Source: Amblyomma americanum (taxonomy: Eukaryota; Arthropoda; Arachnida; Ixodida; Ixodidae). From it: a stretch of DNA of 64,000 nucleotides. This document shows positions 9,655 through 62,603 of the stretch, piece by piece. Every line of letters starts with the position of its first letter. The first letter of the stretch is position 1. Location: the NCBI RefSeq assembly GCF_052857255.1, contig NC_135505.1:42619520-42683519 (forward strand), given 5' to 3'. Below the pieces are notes generated by a model. It was not told where the DNA came from, did no database searches, and saw only the letters and a program-made list of their open reading frames with translations. Made by a program: the position numbers and the translations under genes.

Positions 9655-10828
9655 TTTACACTCAAACGCAACAGTCACAAGAACGAGACTGCCGATATAT
9701 CAGACGGACCACACTCGCTGTATTCTGTGCCACTTTGTGATCGAGCCAAGCAGTTGCATCTAGACCGAGGAATCATCATCGCAAGAGGCATCACACATTT
9801 TCGCAATGGCCAGGCTGAAGTACTGGTGCCTAACTTCAGCCAAGAATACCGGCACATAAGAGAGGAACGACGATTGCTTTCTTATCCGAAGTATATCCCA
9901 CGTACGAGACTCCTTCGCCCTGTCCTACCAATCCGCAGAAGATTCGCCTGACCAAGAGAACTCGCCCACGTGTCGACATCAATCCAGCCCTGCCCCGGAA
10001 CAGACAAAACCAGATGCGCAATCTGCTTCGAAGCTACAGCGAGTGTTTATCCTCATCGCCCAAGGTCCGACAAACGCCAATTGCCAAACATCGCATTATA
10101 ACCACCCGGCCTGTACGTGAAAGCCTCTACCGTGTGTCGCCGCGAGAACGAACAGCCATCCGGGACCAAGTAGAAGAAATGCTTCGCGACGACGTCATCC
10201 AGCTTTCATACAGCCCATGGGTGGGACCAGTTGTTCTAGTGAGAAAGAAAGACGGCGCACTTCGATTCTGCGTCGATACCGCCACTTGGACAACATAACA
10301 AAGAAGGACGTCTACCCCCTCCCCCGCATCGACGATACACTGGACAGGCTCTGAAACGCAAAGTATTTCTCATACATGGACCTCAAGAGCGGCTACTGGC
10401 AAATTGTGATCGATAACAGAGATCGCGAGAAGACCGCATTCATCACTCCCGATGAGCTCCGAGTTCAAGGTCATGCCATTTGGTCTGCATTCCACACCAG
10501 CGACGTTTCAGAGAGTAAGGGATACAGTGCTGGCAGGCCTGAAGTGGCAAATTTGTCTCGTGAAATCTAAGGTCTGACGAAATCTCGTCTGGTCCGGTAA
10601 TGAGTAAGTCATTTCAACAGAAAAAAGGCAGACGCCGACCAAAGGATTTTGTCAAAACAAAGGCTTTGATTTGACAAGAACCTTTGGTCGGCGTCTGCCA
10701 TTTTTTTCTGTTGAAATTTGTCTCGTATATTTAGATGACGTCGTCTTCTTCGCCTCAAACTTTGAAGAGCACCTCAAAAGACTTCGAACAGTACTAGAGC
10801 CCATCAAGTCGTCTGGCCTAACCTCAAA
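9655..10828 (+). pseudogene. Gypsy-1 pre-RT linker and reverse transcriptase
   Basis: The linker carries LDRGIIIARGITHFRNGQ. RT follows with KVRQTPIAKHRIIT, RVSPRERTAIRDQVEEML, SPWVGPVVLVRKKDG, NITKKDVYPLPRIDDTLDRL, MDLKSGYWQI and REKTAFITP. After the hairpin insertion the catalytic strand reads VYLDDVVFFASNFEEHL (YLDD near 10727-10740). The frame shifts after RFCVD (near 10277), and TGA at 10352-10354 cuts the sequence before YFSYMDLKSG. The MPFGLCSAPATFQ region is scrambled. This would be the polymerase that copies element RNA to DNA; in this state it cannot be made. Confidence 0.85.
10562..10713 (+). mobile_element. 152-bp hairpin insertion with 13-bp target duplication
   Basis: AAATTTGTCTCGT occurs at 10549-10561 and again at 10714-10726, exactly flanking 152 extra bases between WQICLV-type codons and YLDD of the Gypsy-1 RT. 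The insert has a 49-base leader (10562-10610) and then a foldback, 10611-10717. The arms start ATTTCAACAG and end CTGTTGAAAT, each about 50 bases with a few mismatches, and the loop is about 8 bases near ACAAAGGC. No coding potential. The long duplication is retroposon-like rather than cut-and-paste-like. Confidence 0.85.
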
Positions 10829-11360: not shown

Positions 11361-12309
11361 AAAGCAGAGAAGTGCCACTTTCTCTAAGAAGTGATGCTTT
11401 CTCTTGGCCACATCATTACCAAGAAGGGAGCACACCCAGACCCACAGAAAACAGCTGCTATTGCACAGTTTCCAACCCCTGCCGATAAGAAAGCAGTGCA
11501 CAGATTGCTCGGACAGTGCACATATTACCGACGATTTGTGGAAAATCTTTCGAGGATCGCCGAGCCCCAGACCGAACTGACGAAGGCAGACGTGCAACTT
11601 AAATGGAAAGCTCTGCAAGCAGAAGCTTTCAAGGAACTTCAGCGGCGTTTACAGTCCCCACCGAGCCTCGTGAATTTTGATGAAAATGTTAAAAATGAAG
11701 TTCATACCGATGCAAGCAGCGTGGGACGAGGCGCCATCCTCATTCAGAAAATCGACGGGCTGGAGAAAGTAATATCATACGCTAGGCGTTCCATTTCAAA
11801 GGCCGAGGCTAACTACTCGACAACTGAGAAGGAGTGCCTTGCCATCATCTGGGCTACGTCAAAATTCCGCCCTTACCTGTACGGACGACCGTTCAAAGTG
11901 GTCAGCAAGCACCACGCGCTGTGCTGGTTTACCAATTTGAAGGAATCGTCTGGCCGCCTCTCTCGATTGAGTCTGAGCCTCCTGGAGTTTGACGTCACGT
12001 ACGTTTACAAGTCCGAACACAAGCACTCTGAAGCTGATTGCCTCTCACGAGCTCCTGAAGATGCACCGTCGCCGGACGACGATGAGGACGCCTTCCTGGG
12101 ACTCATCAGTCACACCTCTTTTGCACAGCAGCAACGCTCAGACCCCGACCTAAAACACCTCATCGAGTACTTTGAAGATAAGGATTCTTCGCCCCCCCCC
12201 CCCCACACCCTATTCAAGCCAAGACTGTCTGCCATCTGTCTACAGAATGATGTCCTCGTGAAGAAGAGCTTCACAGCGAACAAAACAGCCTACCTCCTTG
12301 TTGAACCAA
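11361..12309 (+). pseudogene. Gypsy-1 RT thumb, RNase H and linker
   Basis: After AEKCHF and a stop, the frame from 11391 runs open for about 305 codons. LGHIITKKG and DPQKTAAIAQFPTP are RT connection. AVHRLLGQCTYYRRFVEN is thumb. VHTDASSVGRGAIL and YSTTEKECLAIIWATSKF are RNase H, and HKHSEADCLSR closes the domain. An acidic linker (PDDDEDAFLGLIS) leads to the integrase. DHHAL, usual in this family, reads KHHAL here. The frame is broken by the SINE at 12310. Confidence 0.88.
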
Positions 12310-12541
12310 GCCGCAGCGGTTTCTCAGTGGTTATGGCGCTCGGCTGCTGACCTTATAGACGCGGGTTCGATCCCCGCCGCGGTGGTCGAATTTCGATGGA
12401 GGTAAAATTCTACAGGCCCGTGTACTGTGCGACGTCAGTGCACGTTAAAGAACCCCTCGTGGTCGAGATTTCCGAAGCCCTTCTCTACGGCGTCCCTCAT
12501 ACCCTGACTCGCTTTAAGGCGTTAAACCCTGTAAACCTAAA
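12310..12541 (+). mobile_element. Ruka-like SINE, copy 2, inside Gypsy-1 pol
   Basis: Full SINE layout: GCCGCAGCGG start, tRNA-like head with GGGTTCGATCCCC, CGAATTTCGATGGAGG, GTCAGTGCACGTTAAAGAACCCC, GGCGTCCCTCATACCC, tail GTAAACCTAAAA. It splits the pol codons LLVEP from CLRKEFVQAAHHEPTA. The flanking strings TGTTGAACC and TGTTGCACC are a worn target duplication. Confidence 0.88.
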
Positions 12542-13438
12542 AAGCGCTGTTGCACCTGCTTGTCTCCGCAAAGAATTTGTACAGGCTGCACACCACGAGC
12601 CTACAGCTGTGCATTTTGGATTTAATCGCACCCTCCGCCACATTCAATACAAGTATTACTTCCATTATCTGCCGTTGTCGCAAAATATGTGAAAACCTGC
12701 CGAGATTTTCATCAGCGAAAAACCCTCCCACCCGACCAGCCGGATTTCTCAACACCATTGAACTCTCCTCAAGGCCATTTCAGCAGATCGGCATAGACTT
12801 GCTTGGCCCTTTCCCCAAGTCAACGTCTAGAAATATGCGGATCATCGCAGCGACCGACGACCTGACCCGCTACGTCGAGGCAAAAGCCTTACCAAAAAAA
12901 AAGCAGCCGAGGTCGCCAAATTTTTCGTGCAAAGCATTCATCTGCTACATGGCGCCCCCGATATGCTCATCACGGACAGAGGAACAGCATTCATGGTGGA
13001 ACTAGCCCAAGCCATCCTGCGTTACAGCCAAACCAGCCACCGGAGGAAAGCTGCATACCATCCGCAGAAAAACGGACGGAACAAAACCATGGCCGACATG
13101 CTCGCCATGAATGTTGACGACGAACACAAGACCTGGGTTGTCATCGTGCCTTACATCGTCTTCGCCTACAACACCGCAGTGCAGGAGAGCACCCAGATGA
13201 CGCCTTTTAAGCTCGTCCACGCCAGGAAGGCCACGACCGCGCTAGACGCCATGCTGCCCAACGTTACCGAAGAAGAGAACGTCGACATCGCCGCCTACCT
13301 TCGGCGTACAAGAAGCCTGAAGACTTGCAGATTAAGGATGAAGGACCGGCAGCGGACTGGCGCCAGATAATACAACCTACGAAGACGGAACGCGGAATAC
13401 AAGCCAAGAGATGAAGTCTAGGTGTGGACGCTCTGATG
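12542..13438 (+). pseudogene. Gypsy-1 integrase, N-terminal and catalytic core
   Basis: The zinc-binding part begins CLRKEFVQAAHHEPTAVHFG (HH pair region). The core shows IGIDLLGPFP (first Asp at 12796-12798), then, after a frameshift near 12890, MLITDRGTAF (second Asp at 12975-12977) and AAYHPQKNGRNK. The TERLNK segment that would bring the catalytic Glu is deleted. KTWVVIVPYIVFAYNTAVQESTQMTPF and NLRRRNAEYKPRDEV lead to the point where Gypsy-2 is inserted. Confidence 0.85.
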
Positions 13439-14284
13439 TGCAAACGAAATCGTCAGGTTGTTTTCGATCGCGGCGCGTAGACAATGGTGCGCCGGACAGC
13501 GAGACGCTGCGCGTGCCAGCCCAGCGTTGCGCATGTGCGCGTGCGAAGGGTCTTTGCGAGGCGACGGCGACAAAGAGCGTGGAGAGCACGAGGAATGAGG
13601 AGCTGAGTTCTCAGTAAACCGAGGTGTGAAGGGAGACAGCGCATCGGAGGTCGTGTCATTCAAGTGTAGAGGTAGCAGCCGTCAGACGTTGGGTCCATGC
13701 TGCCGTGGACCTCCCTTCCATCACCGATGCAAGCCTACTGCGTTCTTTGCAAGTGTGCAGGTGGCAGCCGATGAACTGAGTGTCCGTGTTGCCTAAATGC
13801 GCTCTTGGAAGCCTGCTTTAAGCCTCTGGCGTTCCGTGACGCCGTCGACGGGACATGGTGACGTTTTCCCTGCTGCTGCCAAGTTCTTCGGGCTCTTGAC
13901 GGGAGACCACTGGCGTCTCTCCTTATTCCTCTTCGCTTTTAATACCACCTGGCTCCCTTCCGTCACTTCCTTCGACGCAGCGCCAGCGACGCGTCGCACT
14001 ATAGCCATCCGCGCTCCGTCCTGTCTGCAAGGCATCCCCGCTTCACCGGGTGATGCTCAGTACCTAGTGAATTCTTTCCTTTTATTCGGTAGTGTTGTAC
14101 GCGTGTTGAGTGTGTGTTTTTCTTGTATTCATGCCCGTTTTTCATTAGCCTCTTTTCGTTCAACCTATAAATACGGCTTTGTTTTGTTTTCTTTGATCTC
14201 TTTGTTCTCTTGTTCTCTTGCTCGAATCTACACGCGATAGCGTTCCCCTGCAGAAAGTCGGGGACGCGTTATTGATTCGTTACA
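13439..14284 (+). repeat. Gypsy-2 5' LTR
   Basis: 846 bases, starting TGCAAACGAAATCGTC and ending GATTCGTTACA. Matches the 3' LTR along its length, apart from the later 1.6-kb insertion there. It contains CTATAAATACGG, a TATA-like box near 14165. Confidence 0.9.
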
Positions 14285-14285
14285 A

Positions 14286-14302
14286 TGGGCGTCCGCGCGA
14301 CA
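14286..14302 (+). promoter_or_regulatory. Candidate primer-binding site of Gypsy-2
   Basis: TGGGCGTCCGCGCGACA begins one base past the 5' LTR, where the tRNA primer site (starting TGG) is expected. The tRNA was not identified. Confidence 0.5.
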
Positions 14303-14351
14303 GCACGATGCCGTATTTTTTTCCCTTTTTGTGGATCCGTAAAACGAAACG

Positions 14352-15330
14352 ATGAGCACGCTAAAGGAGTTAATTGAATCGGGCAAAGAGTTGGGGTTGA
14401 AAGATGCCGAAGTGAGCACGTGGGTGGCTGCTGAGCAAGAGCCTGAACGCGCTGCACGGGCAGCCGAACGCGAGCACGCGAAGGCGCAAGAAGAGGCTGA
14501 GTAGCGCAAAACACGAGCCGAACGCAAGCATGCAAAGTCGTCAGCAGAAGCCGAACGCGAGCATGCGAAGTTGCTGTAGAGGCCGAAGAACGTAGATTGC
14601 AGCTCCAATAAAGGCTCGCAGAAGCTGGTGGGGTAATCGAGAACCCACACAGGGGCCCTCAGCAGCGGATAGCTCTCACAAATTGATCCGGCCTTTCGAC
14701 GATCGCAGGGATGACATGGATGCATACCTCAAGCGTTTTGGCGGCATCGCAGAAGGCCACAGCTGGCCTAAGAAAAAATGGGCTACAGAACTAAGTATGT
14801 CTTTGAATGGGGAGGCTCTCCGTATGTTCGGTCGAATGCCTCCAGCAGTTTCAATCTATCCCTAATCCAACATTTTTGGTTTACAGCAGAGGGTTATCGC
14901 GAAAGGTTTTATGAAAGTAAGCCGCTAGATAAATAAACAGGCTAGCAATACGCAGCACACCTGCTCAGTCTTTTCGATCGATGAGTTGAGATGTCGGGAA
15001 CGGCCACAACTTACAATGATTTGCGTGACTTGGTGGTGGCCGAACAGTTCATGAGGAACTGCCATAGTCGTGTGCCGATTTTCCTTCCAGAAAGAGAGTG
15101 CAAGGCGCTGGACAAAAAGGCTGAGGCAGCAGACAACTTACTAGAGGCCCAGCGGCAAAAATCGTGTCTTCGTGTAAAGAATCGCTTGAGGTAGGCATTC
15201 CTAGAGAGGAGCATGTACCATCAAGTAGAGAGTCAGACGGCTGTCCCATTTGTAACCGACCTGCTCAAAAGGCTGCCGAATGTCGCTCTAAGGCGAAGCA
15301 GCCTTATTGATTTTATTGTCGGAAAACAGG
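14352..15330 (+). pseudogene. Gypsy-2 gag with SCAN-like domain
   Basis: ATG at 14352 starts MSTLKELIESGKELGLKDAE, then an alanine/glutamate-rich coiled-coil with repeated AEREHAK units. In-frame stops TAG at 14502-14504 (codon 51) and TAG at 14577-14579 (codon 76) break it. The capsid-like part follows: FDDRRDDMDAYLKRF, GWPKKKWATEL-type (here SWPKKKWATEL), LNGEALRMFGRMP, then DLRDLVVAEQFMRNC and AEAADNLLEAQ, typical of tick gypsy gags with a SCAN-like fold. A zinc-knuckle remnant, CPICNRPAQKAAEC, lies near 15240-15285. Gag would form the particle that packages the element RNA. Confidence 0.8.
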
Positions 15331-15389
15331 GCATGATGTGAGCTCCTGATGAAGAAAGCACGAAAACCGGAAACAGTCGTTCTGTTGTG

Positions 15390-15780
15390 TTCAGCCAGAG
15401 AGTATTGCGCATGAAACTGTGTCCACAACAGCAGATTGGCTTGAACCAGCTGGAGATGAGGTGGTGGCCGGACTTGTCCGGAAAAAAGCCTGCAGACGCC
15501 CAACCCATGCCTCTACAAGAGGGAGAGCTTCGAAGGCTGCCCGTGCGTGTTTTACGGAACACAGGGAGCAATATAGTTGTTGTACGGAGAACCCCAGTTA
15601 CTGACTAAGCTCTCACCGGCTCGATATCTACGGTGTTCCTTGTTGATGGCAGTAGTCTGGAAGTTCCCGAAGCAGCACTCTATATCACTTCCCCTTATTT
15701 CACTGGCACGGCACTGGTAAAGTGCATGAAGACACCACTATACGATGTCATAATTGGAAATATACCGTGAGCCGTTGTCA
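15390..15780 (+). pseudogene. Gypsy-2 aspartic protease, active-site Asp lost
   Basis: LPVRVLRNTGSNIVVVRR followed by ISTVFLVDGSSLEVPEA, ITSPYFTGTALVKCMKTP and LYDVIIGNIP is a retropepsin. The catalytic DTG triplet reads NTG: codon AAC at 15558-15560 in place of GAC/GAT. A TAA at about 15606 splits the domain. The protease would process the polyprotein; this copy could not. Confidence 0.75.
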
Positions 15781-15907
15781 CCACTTCGCGCACTTTTGCG
15801 TGCGCTCCCAGACACCCTTAGAGCGTGTGGGGGTAGCGGTCTCGGTCACAAAGGAGATGCCCTCGACTCAGCGTGGCAAGCTCAGCCGGAGACCGGCTAC
15901 CAAGTGA

Positions 15908-16830
15908 CAAGGAGGTTGGTCGTTTGGGGCCCAGCTTTCGCCGGTCGCAAGCCAGAGCATGGGTCGGAGCCAAATGTTCAGAAAACAAAACAAATTTTAT
16001 ACAGCGAAGAGACGATACAGAGGATTTCACAATCACTCGTACGAGCACATACAAGGTGATTTACAAATACAATGCAACTCATGCAAAGTAAATATTGAGA
16101 GAGATTACAATTTATCAGAATTTTTGCGCCTAAAGTGCTCTAACATAGACAGAAACAATCAAACAAAACACAGTTTGTTCACCGGGCACTGCGACAGTCC
16201 GACGACCTGAGGAGCACGACGGGGCCGATCCGCAGAGTGGCGAGCGCAGCCTCGCTGGTCCGTGGCTGGACGAGTGGCGTTCTCCCAGGTGTTGAGCGGG
16301 CGTACTTCTCGGAAGCTTAAACGACGGCTCGGGCTACCAGACAGCGGTTGCAGCCCCTCATTTATGGGCGCAGCCCGCGTCTGTTTGTTCTCCGCGCCAT
16401 TGCAGGCGCGCACATAAACGCAGTATCAACTGCACAAATTCCTTCTCCCTGCTCCGGGCGCGCGACCGCATCGGTCGAGCGCGGAAACCGCCTTCCAGGA
16501 AAATCCAGGTCATTCTCGCCACGCGGAGTCATCGGCGCAAGAGCGAAGGGAAGAGAGTATCACTTTAGCGCGGACAAGGTTACCCCCTCTCTGTCGGCAA
16601 TGAGTAGAAACTACTCAGATATTCTAGAGAAATCGACGCCGCGCGTGGCTATGTTTACTTTGGCGCCGCGCCGGCGAGCTGGGTGGAAAGGACAGCAGCC
16701 CACGCAATGTTACGCACTCTCCGGGGTTCTTTCCTTGCTCTTTTTTGTTTTATTTTACAGCGCGTGGGCGAGATTGCTTACGCGCAGCGTCGTTTTATCG
16801 AAGATGCGCCGAAATTTGTGACCGCCGTCA
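15908..16830 (-). mobile_element. LTR-like block replacing Gypsy-2 RT/RNase H
   Basis: About 920 bases without coding capacity stand where RT and RNase H should be, between protease and integrase. On the minus strand it resembles a solo LTR: GC-rich upstream part, CATAAATGAGGGGCTGC as a TATA-like start region near 16370, then an AT-rich downstream part. The outermost bases are TGAC..GTCA. No matching target duplication was found, and the RT loss means insertion plus deletion. The LTR reading is inference. Confidence 0.4.
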
Positions 16831-18235
16831 AATCTAGAAATCAATTGGAATAGATCAGAGGGCGTTGCTAAATTATGTCCTGACATAGTCAATGACGAGG
16901 TCGCCAGTGAAAACTGTGAGGGTTAGGGCCCAAAATGGTACTGGCTGGAAGGGAAGTCTCTGTACGAAAGAGGGAAAGTACTGCTTTAAGCGTTGGTCCT
17001 ATGAGGTTGACCAAGCAAATGCTAGATGCAGAGCAAAGAGGCAATGAGTCATTGAAGGCGTCTTGGGTGAAAGTAGGAAATGTGTTCCATGTCAAGCACG
17101 GTACTTCGCACAGGCATTCTGGTGAAAGGGGTTTACTGTACCGTGTCTATCGTCTCGCTTCCGACAGAGAGGTTCGACAGGTAGTACTTCCAAAGTCTTG
17201 TAGATAGCATGTGTTAAGCCTTGCCCACGAGAGCCCGTTGGCGGGGCATCAGGGTATTAAGAAGACAACAGATCGAGTTCTTGAAGAATTCTACTGGCCG
17301 GGAGTGCAAGAGGAGATTAAAAGGTATGTCAGGTCGTGCGACACTAGCCAAAGGACGTGCCCGACAGGCAAACTAGGGACGGCTCCGTTGGAACGCAAGC
17401 ATATTATCGACAGTCCATTTTGTCGGGTCGCTGTCGATATTGTCGGTCCGCTGTCGCCCACATCGGGGAACGGGAATAGATATATTCTTACTCTCGTCGA
17501 TTTTGCCACGCGGTATCCCGACGCCGTGGCCCTGGCAAAGATCGTTTCAGCGACCTTGGCAATGGGTTTTTTGGAGAAGTTTTCACGAAAAGGTTTTCCG
17601 AGAGAGATCATTTGTGACCAGGGCTTCTGTTTCACTCCCGAAACGTTGAGAGACCAAAATGATCTCTTGGCGGTGAAACATCTGAGCACGATCCCTTACC
17701 ACACTCAAGCACACTCAAGCAGACGCTCCAGAAGCATCCAAAACAAAGGATCGTTATGTCGCTCTGCTTCTGTTCGCATACAGAGAGGCGCCGCAGGCGA
17801 GTCTGTGGTTTTCTCCATTTGGGTTAATATTTGGACGTCACGTGCGAGGACTGCTCGCAGTTCTCACGGAGTTCTGGACCAGGGAAGAGCTGGGAGGAGA
17901 CACGAAGACGACCTATGGTTATGTTCTCGATCTAAGAGAACGTTTCGAGCAAACTGTGAGAGCGGCACATCAAAATTTGTTGCGTGTCCAACAGTCTCAC
18001 AAGAAATACTATGACCGGAAGAGCTGGATGCGGCATTTAAGGGTTGAAGATGGGGCCCTCACTCTTTTGTCGAGCAGCCACCATAAAGTGCTAATGCAGT
18101 GGTAAAGTGCATTTAGGTTTGTGGCAAAAGGAACGATGTGGATTATTGGATCGACTTGGGCCACACTAAGAAGCTATTCCACATCAATATGCTTAAGCGG
18201 TACCAAGAGCGCACGCTCCAAGAGACCGTGCAAGT
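16831..18235 (+). pseudogene. Gypsy-2 integrase
   Basis: A spacer (GLLYRVYRLASDREVRQVV) leads into the zinc domain: HVLSLAHESPLAGHQGIKKT, then CDTSQRTC, where the usual second Cys of CDTC is Ser. The core has VAVDIVGPLSPTSGNGNRYI (first Asp near 17436), DFATRYPDAVAL and IICDQGFCFTPE (second Asp at 17616-17618). The Glu region is scrambled near 17700-17750. The C-terminus reads GYVLDLRERFEQTVRAAHQN, SHKKYYDRKS and KLFHINMLKRYQER. A TAG at 17205-17207 and later frameshifts inactivate it. Confidence 0.85.
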
Positions 18236-53900: not shown

Positions 53901-55330
53901 GCAAATACGTTCATTAATAGCGAGAAATACCTTCATGTATGTCTGTGAGTTGCAAATATGACCATGGAAGAAGAATCTGTAAATGATGAAGCTGAAGTGA
54001 AATCTTGCATACTCTGTTAGCCTCACGCTAGTGAATGATTTCACTTGATGTACTAATTTGAGCGTACACGTGCAGAACGAGTATGGGTGTAATACGAGGG
54101 AGATAAGTTGTGGGAGGCATAGCCTCCCGGCTGATTGCATCACTGTCCCAGTGTCCCAGTGAAGACAGGTGAGGCGATGAAATTGGGTCTCGTACACTAT
54201 CCGCAGCTGGAGGATGGAGCCCACAAACTGACGGGAATTATCAGCACGCGCTCCGCCAGACCGCATAGCTATGCGTCGAATCAGACTGCGAGTGTAGCGC
54301 GAGCCGACTTACGGGCCGCATTTAGCCACGGGGTCCCAGATGTACGAAGTAGAAGACCTAGAACACGCACACTTTCTACTTGAGGAATTGGAGAATGATC
54401 TACCGTGAAGGTAAAAAGGGCTGCTTTCCGTAAGCCGCACCTGTTTCCAATGCGAATGAAACATGATTTCTTACACGGTAGCGCCCGACCCAAAGGGAGT
54501 AGTCGTGATGTTAAGGCATCCAGCGCTCGCTGGGGCGCTGACGTGCACAGCGTGCATCTGGATGACAGGACCGCAAGGTTATATCGTCGGCGTACGCAAG
54601 GACGCGTACAGAAGGCATTTTCTCTAGGGCTCGGACAAGACGTATAAAAGTTACGTTAAACAATGTGGGGGCAAGGACGGAGCACTGCGGTACACCGCGG
54701 TTGTAGGTAAAGTAACCAAAAGGTTTCCCATTGACACGTACACTGAAGGTTCTGTTTGTTAAAAGTGAGTGAATTGAGAGCAGAAACCGATTCGGGAGAC
54801 AGAGATATTGAAGGGTGCCAATAATTGCTGAGTGAAAGACTTGTCAGATGCCTTTGGTGATGTCAGTAGCGATCACCGTACGAGCAAGATGACTATAGGG
54901 AGAATGGTTGAGTACTACCTCCATAAAAAAAAACGCAAACAACCCGGCCCCAGCACGCTCCGCTGTTTCAATTTCTTTTCACCCCGCTTTGACTTCGGTG
55001 ATAGCAAAAAGAGCCTAGACTCATCCATGATATATTCTAGGATGGCTCTAACGTCTTTTTCGTACCACCAAGGTAAAAGCGCGATGAAAATAAATTCCAA
55101 CAGCGGGGTGTGTTGGCGCCGGGTTGTTCGCATTTCTTTCCATTGAGGTAGCACGTCCGCAGCCAAAACAGCCAGCCTGTCTTCCGTTCCAGTTTGAGGG
55201 AAAAACCCAGTTTGAGACTCTAGATAACAATCATTGGATTCCAGCCACCATGACAAGCGAGCTGCTAGAATGTGTCCACATAGCTTGCAGATAATAGGCG
55301 TAAGAGAAATAGGGCGGAGGAGGAGGAGGA
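53901..55330 (-). pseudogene. LINE-D reverse transcriptase, main part
   Basis: Minus-strand wording: RPISLTPIICKLCGHIL (55320-55270), SQTGFFPQTGTEDRLAVLAA, GVPQCSVLAPTLFNVTF, VLAYADDITLRSCHP (YADD intact, near 54583-54597), IRIGNRCGLRKAALFTFTVD and PQVESVRVLGLLLRTSGTP. Stops and frameshifts between blocks. RT would copy LINE RNA at the target nick. Confidence 0.8.
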
Positions 55331-55419: not shown

Positions 55420-56285
55420 AGAAAATAGTCAATACGAAAATTCAGCGTTCGCAGAAATCACAGCATATCGTGTAAGCCAAAAGTTCGTAAGGAGCGGAGC
55501 AGTGCTTTGGATGACTTTACCGCCGACGATCGCTGCGGCCAGTGGCCAAGAACCTTCATTTCTGTCAGTGGGCGTGGATCTAGACGCTCCAGCGCACGGC
55601 AGAGCGACTGCCTTCGGCGCTATAGGCAGGACAGTCACAAAGAATATGGGGCAGAGTCTCGCCATACCCGCAGATGCCACATGCGGGGCTATAGGCTTTT
55701 CCGATTAAGAACGAGTAATGGCTGATGAAAGCAACGCCAAACGAAAGGCGACACAGCAAAGTTTATTCATTTCAGGAGGACACAGGGGCGCAACAAAAAC
55801 ACACGGACATAGAAGTAGACAGGGACGAGCGCTCGTCCCTGTCTACTTCTATGTTCGTGTGTTTTTGTTGCGCCCCTGTGTCCTCCTGAAAAGATATGAA
55901 CCAACACGCCCAAATACAAGTACTTCTGAAAGTTTATTCACTTCGTGGTAGGCCGGATGAAAGCCGGAGCTTCATATCTGGGTCCAAGGATTTTAAACGT
56001 GAATTGGAGAATTGGCCGGAATTCCACGCGGCAAGCGTGATGTCCCGTGCTAGAGCGCGAAGAATGCCCGCTGCGTCTGATCTCGAAAAGGCGATCGACA
56101 CAAAATCGCCGTCGTGGAGAGCAGTTCGGGCGACCTCATCCGCACGGTGACTGCCTACTATGCCGCTGTGCCCCGGTAGCCGTTGGTAGATAATGTCGTG
56201 CCCTTTATTTATGGCACAGTGATGTAGTTGTCGGATTCCCGTGACCAGTTGTTCATGCACTCCACGGCGATGAGTCGACTTGATT
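55420..56285 (-). mobile_element. 5'-truncated LINE 3' end nested in LINE-D
   Basis: RNase H end HDIIYQRLPGHSGIVGSHRA, DEVARTALHDGD, ARDITLAAWNSGQFSNSRL and DPDMKLRLSSGLPRSE, then (after the palindrome insertion) GVAF.., SPACGICGYGETLPHILCDC-type wording (C-terminal Cys/His motif) to about 55430. It belongs to a family related to LINE-D and lies between that element's VPIPK and RPISLTP codons, same strand. Confidence 0.7.
55770..55928 (-). mobile_element. 159-bp palindromic insertion with 12-bp target duplication
   Basis: AAAGTTTATTCA at 55758-55769 and 55929-55940 flanks the insert. 55770-55891 is a 122-bp palindrome centred at 55830/55831 (GAGCGCTC) with 61-base arms, one mismatch (55805 region, G against A) and no loop. 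A 37-base non-palindromic segment (55892-55928) completes it. Removing the insert and one duplication rejoins the LINE codons around SGLPRSE and the following LLCRLWLGVAF-type stretch. Confidence 0.92.
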
Positions 56286-60950: not shown

Positions 60951-61135
60951 TTGTTGAGCGGCTAGCCCACCAAATTCTCTCCACGAGTTCTCAGAACAAA
61001 CAAAAGGGGGCTTTGCCGTGCAGCGTCCAGCATCGCACAAGCTTCGTGAGAAAACAGAAGCGGTTGCTCATACAGCAACGCCAACAAAAAACGCAGGTGT
61101 TGACGTGATTGAGGACGCTGTAATGTGATCGCAGG
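60951..61135. other. Spacer before the CCTG array
   Basis: No feature seen between the RTE tail and the array. Confidence 0.4.

Positions 61136-62603
<1,468 letters not shown>

Follow-up and report, generated by a model that had tools for sequence, protein, structure and literature searches.

How does a palindrome with 61-base arms and no loop come to lie, between exact 12-bp repeats, inside the coding end of a long interspersed nuclear element (LINE)? The question arises in a stretch of 64,000 nucleotides from the tick Amblyomma americanum (assembly GCF_052857255.1, contig NC_135505.1, positions 42,619,520 to 42,683,519; hereafter the window), where the whole insert with both repeats occupies positions 55758-55940. 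We conclude that the palindrome is very probably the shortest insertion product of a tick Penelope-like element (PLE), minimal, non-coding and of a kind already known, and we strongly favor a route in which two converging cDNAs joined at the hexamer AGCGCT make it. A preliminary description had proposed an undescribed class of foldback retroposon. Its anatomy (the arms with one mismatch, the 37-base single-copy leader and the repeats) is exact, but the claim of a new class falls, because the arms are the pseudo-long terminal repeat (pseudo-LTR) end of a PLE, the leader holds the first 11 codons of the PLE open reading frame (ORF), and inverted pseudo-LTRs, a tail of 30-40 nt on one side and junction palindromes have all been published (PMC3846280, PMC11167929).

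The arms, 55770-55830 and 55831-55891, differ only at the 25th pair from the center, where the window copy carries at 55855, in the right arm, a base that is private among the 40 copies described below. The single-copy part spans 55892-55928 and is 37 nt long. In a scan of the window with spacers of 0-8 nt the palindrome ranks second, behind an (AT)93 run, and as RNA the insert folds with a z score of -18.9, with 0 of 200 shuffles as stable. The insert and its surroundings comprise the following features.

55588..56269, minus strand: host LINE, C-terminal coding region resembling RNase H, with limits approximate; the frame is continuous and the insert interrupts the region
55758..55769, no strand: target-site duplication, left copy, 12 bp, AAAGTTTATTCA; single copy in the empty paralogue L235
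55770..55830, minus strand: left arm, PLE pseudo-LTR end, antisense on the plus strand; matching end in 38 of the 39 inverted arms of the census below
55828..55833, no strand: self-complementary hexamer AGCGCT, palindrome center and junction common to both arms; overlap of 6-7 nt in 15 of 44 census copies
55831..55895, plus strand: right arm (55831-55891) plus AGAT, PLE pseudo-LTR end, sense, directly upstream of the ORF start
55896..55928, plus strand: PLE tail, the main part of the leader, ATG and 10 codons (MNQHAQIQVLL) of the PLE ORF; matches the ORF start of copy L192
55929..55940, no strand: target-site duplication, right copy, 12 bp, AAAGTTTATTCA; exact repeat, with L235 as the empty site

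The insertion is real. Once the insert and one repeat are removed, the minus-strand LINE frame runs on continuously but for a single in-frame stop, located where the insert sat. When the flanks were joined and used as a query, 40 matches were scored from 1353 first-look candidates, and all 40 span the site without an insert. The best of them, L235, is a paralogue 2.2 Mb away that matches with 97-98% identity along some 1.1 kb of either flank and carries AAAGTTTATTCA once, with no insert. Frame continuity and this empty paralogue substantiate the earlier placement of the insert inside a LINE coding end. The host LINE itself matches the Pfam RNase_H profile weakly, below the cut-off (E 0.033), and a protein search with the LINE end returned no match at E 0.001.

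The insert also belongs to a family of many copies, whose duplications differ from site to site. Searching the 2.56-Gb genome (562 first-look candidates), we scored 40 copies at 95-100% identity, all of which share the palindrome and tail; 8 that share flanks with others were dropped, leaving 32 independent sites. At 27 of these, the element is adjoined by its own exact duplication of 8-14 bp, compared with 3 of 992 mismatched pairings. In the majority sequence of the element, which has 159 bases, the palindrome is perfect, and its 26-nt core occurs at 91 places in the assembly, the window's own included (reversed control, 0), part of which represent a second, related family. Further copies with duplications of their own and a common tail were what the preliminary description had named as the mark of a family, and its reading of the repeats as the trace of target-primed retroelement insertion is likewise borne out by these duplications. 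Pattern scans of viral and genome contigs brought nothing further, the 26 viral stretches matching a short pattern only and holding no related insert, and a solved-structure search yielded none.

These copies bear on two alternatives. Palindromes are error-prone, which would favor an assembly or cloning artifact, but many copies with individual flanks and duplications, and the empty paralogue, make this very improbable. A foldback or miniature inverted-repeat transposable element (MITE)-type DNA transposon would provide inverted arms and a target duplication. Such elements have equal inverted ends and a duplication length fixed for the family, whereas here the length varies over 8-14 bp, the tail stands at one end only and the parent encodes a reverse transcriptase (RT), so that we give this explanation negligible probability.

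What, then, is the parent? A pattern made of the tail and the start of the arm occurs 182 times in the genome (control, 0), and many of these copies, read regardless of palindromes, continue from the arm into a longer common sequence. In the window's plus sense this sequence encodes an RT and a GIY-YIG-like end, arranged in tandem units, although the copies read are broken by frameshifts or stops. The RT, presumably of the telomerase-like kind and in a single ORF, is assigned from the RVT_1 profile match (E 1.2e-10 for the L192 piece) and from its relatives; 86 relatives reach E 0.001 or better among 7994 scored candidates, and the best named ones are tick proteins, some labelled tick transposon. 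The GIY-YIG-like motif at the C terminus was seen by eye in the translation, where TIGR01453, a group I intron endonuclease family, gives a weak match below the cut-off (E 0.0029). Tandem and partial-tandem units of the type that creates pseudo-LTRs are present: L192 contains a 2628-nt unit that runs straight into a partial second one, and L193 also has a tandem boundary. The L192 ORF begins MNQHAQIQVLLSYISS, and window positions 55896-55928 are exactly its first 11 codons. Because the tail is the first codons of the ORF, the arms are the last pseudo-LTR bases before the ATG. With an inverted pseudo-LTR, a one-sided tail of 30-40 nt and target-site duplications of variable length at sites of which one is also known empty, we take the parent, from its sequence, to be a PLE.

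This assignment removes some other readings of the insert. An A-box-like stretch in the leader had suggested a short interspersed nuclear element (SINE) transcribed by RNA polymerase III, which we dropped because the leader is PLE codons; over the insert, Rfam gave no match at gathering score. We also rejected the idea that the palindrome closes in a 3' end of the poly(A) type. A hairpin made by an RNA-dependent RNA polymerase, suggested by work on the tick enzyme (PMC10062562), was set aside as not needed.

For a census we fetched 93 of the 182 pattern places and dropped 13 same-flank duplicates (loci L105-L124, which repeat others, are left out), which gave 80 loci. An inverted arm is present in 39 of them and absent from 22; another 16 extend past the fetched DNA, and 3 lie inside tandems. 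Coordinates count from the tail end as 1, each copy running from 1 to x and then through an inverted block from y back to z. The end of the inverted arm, z, lies 31-46 nt from the tail end in 38 of the 39 copies, and at 34-39 in 30 of them, with arms that range from under 50 nt to over 2 kb. Duplications track this second arm: an exact duplication of at least 8 bp is found in 25 of the 39 copies with an inverted arm and in 1 of the 22 without (Fisher 3e-6), and this lone copy, L100, retains an 11-nt CCTCCTGAAAA arm remnant.

Arm lengths were compared in 44 non-chimeric copies, a set that leaves out 5 chimeric ones and includes run-off inverted blocks and two tandem-internal copies. The inverted block starts at 98-107 (y) in 25 of the 44. 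The two arms end within 3 nt of each other in 17 copies; of the others, 22 have the larger y and 5 the larger x (binomial p 0.0015); without the tandem-internal copies L090 and L171 the unequal classes number 20 and 5 of 42 (p 0.004). In 15 of the 44, the window copy among them, AGCGCT is where the arms overlap, over 6 or 7 nt; L161 has a 7-nt overlap too, but at another place. Four PLE copies, L092, L104, L144 and L141, skip internally, as in a move from position 104-105 to 1714 or 1804, which suggests template jumps, some of them at the same stop.

The tail is one-sided throughout. We fetched 27 of the 91 core places, 20 of them chosen for having no exact leader pattern listed beside them and including two flank-sharing pairs (L199/L200 and L219/L220), and in all 27 palindromes the tail stands on exactly one side. 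Seventeen of the 27 belong to the second family, which has other arms and another tail with the same core and anatomy. Its members are L195, L199-L209, L211, L213, L214, L218 and the diverged variant L197, with arms CGCTAAAACACCGAGG... and the tail CTGCACCAACTAGCCCGATCCGCTACCCTTCTG.

From what these data display directly, namely the parent, the places where arms begin, the duplications, the empty site and the junctions, we infer the following course of insertion. The PLE endonuclease would cut both target strands about 12 bp apart, and both target 3' ends would prime copying of the PLE RNA at two neighboring sites around the ORF start, the arm-start places thus serving as RT start sites. At the right end, copying would proceed from start site 1, 33 nt inside the ORF (after codon 11), and include the tail; at the left end, it would proceed from start site 2, just before the ATG. 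The left arm would accordingly be the cDNA that the left target end primed at start site 2, and the tail, 55896-55928, may be placed between start sites 2 and 1 by analogy with a purified PLE protein discussed below. Both cDNAs would extend some 65-100 nt up the pseudo-LTR and halt at one shared point, put at about 65-70 nt before the ATG and presumably near the RNA 5' end. Their 3' ends, both closing in AGCGCT, could then pair into a loopless palindrome with one tail, and a repair step would leave the target duplication.

Perfect symmetry would also be expected of a snap-back, in which a single strand (either cDNA or antisense RNA) turns back on itself at AGCGCT and serves as primer for its own copying. 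Self-priming of this type has been proposed for the junction palindromes of rotifer PLEs (PMC3846280). Arms that end within 3 nt of each other in 17 of 44 copies agree with it, as do variants common to both arms (45/152, 79/118, 95/102 and 78/119) and an internally deleted stretch present in both arms of L092. Yet the inverted arm reaches more than 3 nt beyond the end of the other arm in 22 of the 44 copies against 5 in reverse, and a longer inverted arm holds sequence that no folded strand could template. In 38 of 39 copies it also ends short of the tail, where the second published start site would place it, and target duplications accompany it. Central deletions of formerly perfect palindromes could yield some unequal arms but should be side-neutral. 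Arm lengths thus rule out simple snap-back as the general route, and we regard snap-back as unlikely. The preliminary description had invoked just such a fold-back of the first strand, an idea that could apply to symmetric copies like the window's but fails as the general route.

Variants in the arms indicate how far the two proposed cDNAs would draw on the same template. At position 45, compared in 30 copies after 2 of the 32 independent ones with indels were left out, A stands in both arms in 18 and T in both in 12, with 0 of 30 discordant. Further symmetric changes join this one (45/152) at 79/118 in L049, 95/102 in L059 and 78/119 in L060, the last of which recurs in L098, whose arms are unequal. 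The arms of L095 show 1 difference over 1001 sites, compared with a mean of 11 to other copies. Both the A and the T lineage include non-palindromic copies (for T, L223, L229, L230 and L232).

Many near-identical copies with the same center (91 exact cores over two families, and 40 copies at 95% or above) could instead reflect a hairpin retroposon, the palindrome and tail being transcribed together and copied as a SINE-like unit by the PLE enzymes. Arm lengths and junctions, however, grade continuously into full-length PLEs, non-palindromic copies occur in both arm lineages, and the same center appears in the second family with other arms, a recurrence that a shared stop and hexamer would give. 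We therefore consider the hairpin retroposon quite improbable.

For the two converging cDNAs, we advance more tentatively a specific arrangement in cells, which we hold to be possible but somewhat short of an even chance. One PLE RNA might be read by two RTs in file, with the site-2 enzyme leading and the site-1 enzyme following; run-off at the RNA 5' end, and the self-complementary hexamer there, would then give many perfect palindromes. Reading in file would provide every insertion with one tail, a leading arm at least as long as the tail arm, and the same variants in both arms. Since the leader could not be overtaken, the arrangement fits both the matching variants and the finding that in 39 of the 44 copies y equals or exceeds x, allowing 3 nt.

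Several observations weigh against parts of this account. As regards the parent, Pfam gives no GIY-YIG domain match in it, and Rfam gives no hammerhead ribozyme match up to E 1 in three copies (L192, L187 and L193). Hammerhead ribozymes occur in other PLEs, where they are frequent, not universal. As regards the insertion itself, an exact duplication of at least 8 bp is absent from 14 of the 39 inverted-arm copies, and the tail arm is more than 3 nt longer than the other arm in 5 of 44, which counters a strict enzyme order. As regards a common template, the 38 copies with two comparable arms have 74 differences between arms (55 private) where 106 are expected from the mean distance to other copies, so that arms are only modestly closer to each other. 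In L088, alleles known from other copies make up 4 of the 5 arm differences, which points to two RNAs in this case. The arms of L078 have 18 differences (other copies, mean 25, least 19) and those of L162 have 17 (mean 13.9, least 10), so that in both the arms are nearly as distant as separate copies; 15 differences in each are private and could be later mutations. Lastly, left flanks are rich in T and CT, and some pairing at start site 2 is possible, unlike in the published PLE system, for which no homology is reported (PMC11167929).

The window holds other repeats. About 600 bp from the insert, at 54915-55151, a diverged inverted repeat with arms of about 115 nt, about 77% alike, and a 5-nt spacer resembles an old element of the MITE type in which we noticed no PLE sequence; L235 also matches across this stretch. 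A second inverted repeat, at 10621-10705, has 42-nt arms and a 1-nt spacer. Pieces of an LTR-retrotransposon polyprotein (RT_RNaseH, integrase zinc finger and core) lie at 11388-18014. At 61135-62603, a 367-copy array of the tetranucleotide GCCT (100% matches) has long open frames in six frames and is probably behind a Yae1_N Pfam match.

How do the tick insertions compare with known systems? In twin-primed (5'-inverted) LINE-1 insertions, two target 3' ends prime on the element RNA and leave an inverted part. The tick insertions differ in having a single, constant position for the second priming and no poly(A). If the two-cDNA route is right, it explains how short, perfect palindromes arise in tick genomes, and with them possibly foldback DNA and hairpin RNA.

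Much of the anatomy has a precedent in rotifers. PMC3846280 describes, for endonuclease-containing Penelope elements of Adineta vaga, an inverted pseudo-LTR 37 bp shorter than the direct ones, an optional 31-bp tail, target-site duplications that measure 8-10 bp in the examples consulted, units in partial tandem, palindromes at inverted junctions and one insertion into a non-LTR element. The tick PLE likewise has a short inverted pseudo-LTR, a tail, duplications, partial tandems, junction palindromes and a LINE target. Copy number in A. vaga is given there as particularly low, and the authors favor self-priming (PMC3846280). The tick genome, in contrast, has many young copies, the minimal palindrome of pseudo-LTR alone among them, and their arm lengths favor two converging cDNAs. 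In the passages that we read of a few openly licensed papers, we saw no comparable census; among the titles listed on tick Penelope elements (12 of 19) none concerns this one, and a search of that literature for palindromic SINEs returned no paper.

The proposed mechanism has a biochemical counterpart in PAc, the Poseidon PLE of Anolis carolinensis. As PMC11167929 reports, its purified protein cuts and extends both target strands and uses two neighboring RT start sites early in the ORF, with the tail as the stretch between them. In vitro, no apparent difference in start site between the strands is reported there, whereas the tick tail is confined to one end in 27 of 27 palindromes, and PAc has a hammerhead where the Rfam search of the three tick copies found none. 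PLE integration has been unsettled between these two systems, the rotifer structures being read as self-priming (PMC3846280) and the purified PLE extending two strands from two sites (PMC11167929). A genome with many young, near-identical copies allows the two views to be compared. In the tick census, duplications track the second arm and that arm has one set starting point; arms of unequal length speak for two cDNAs that converge.
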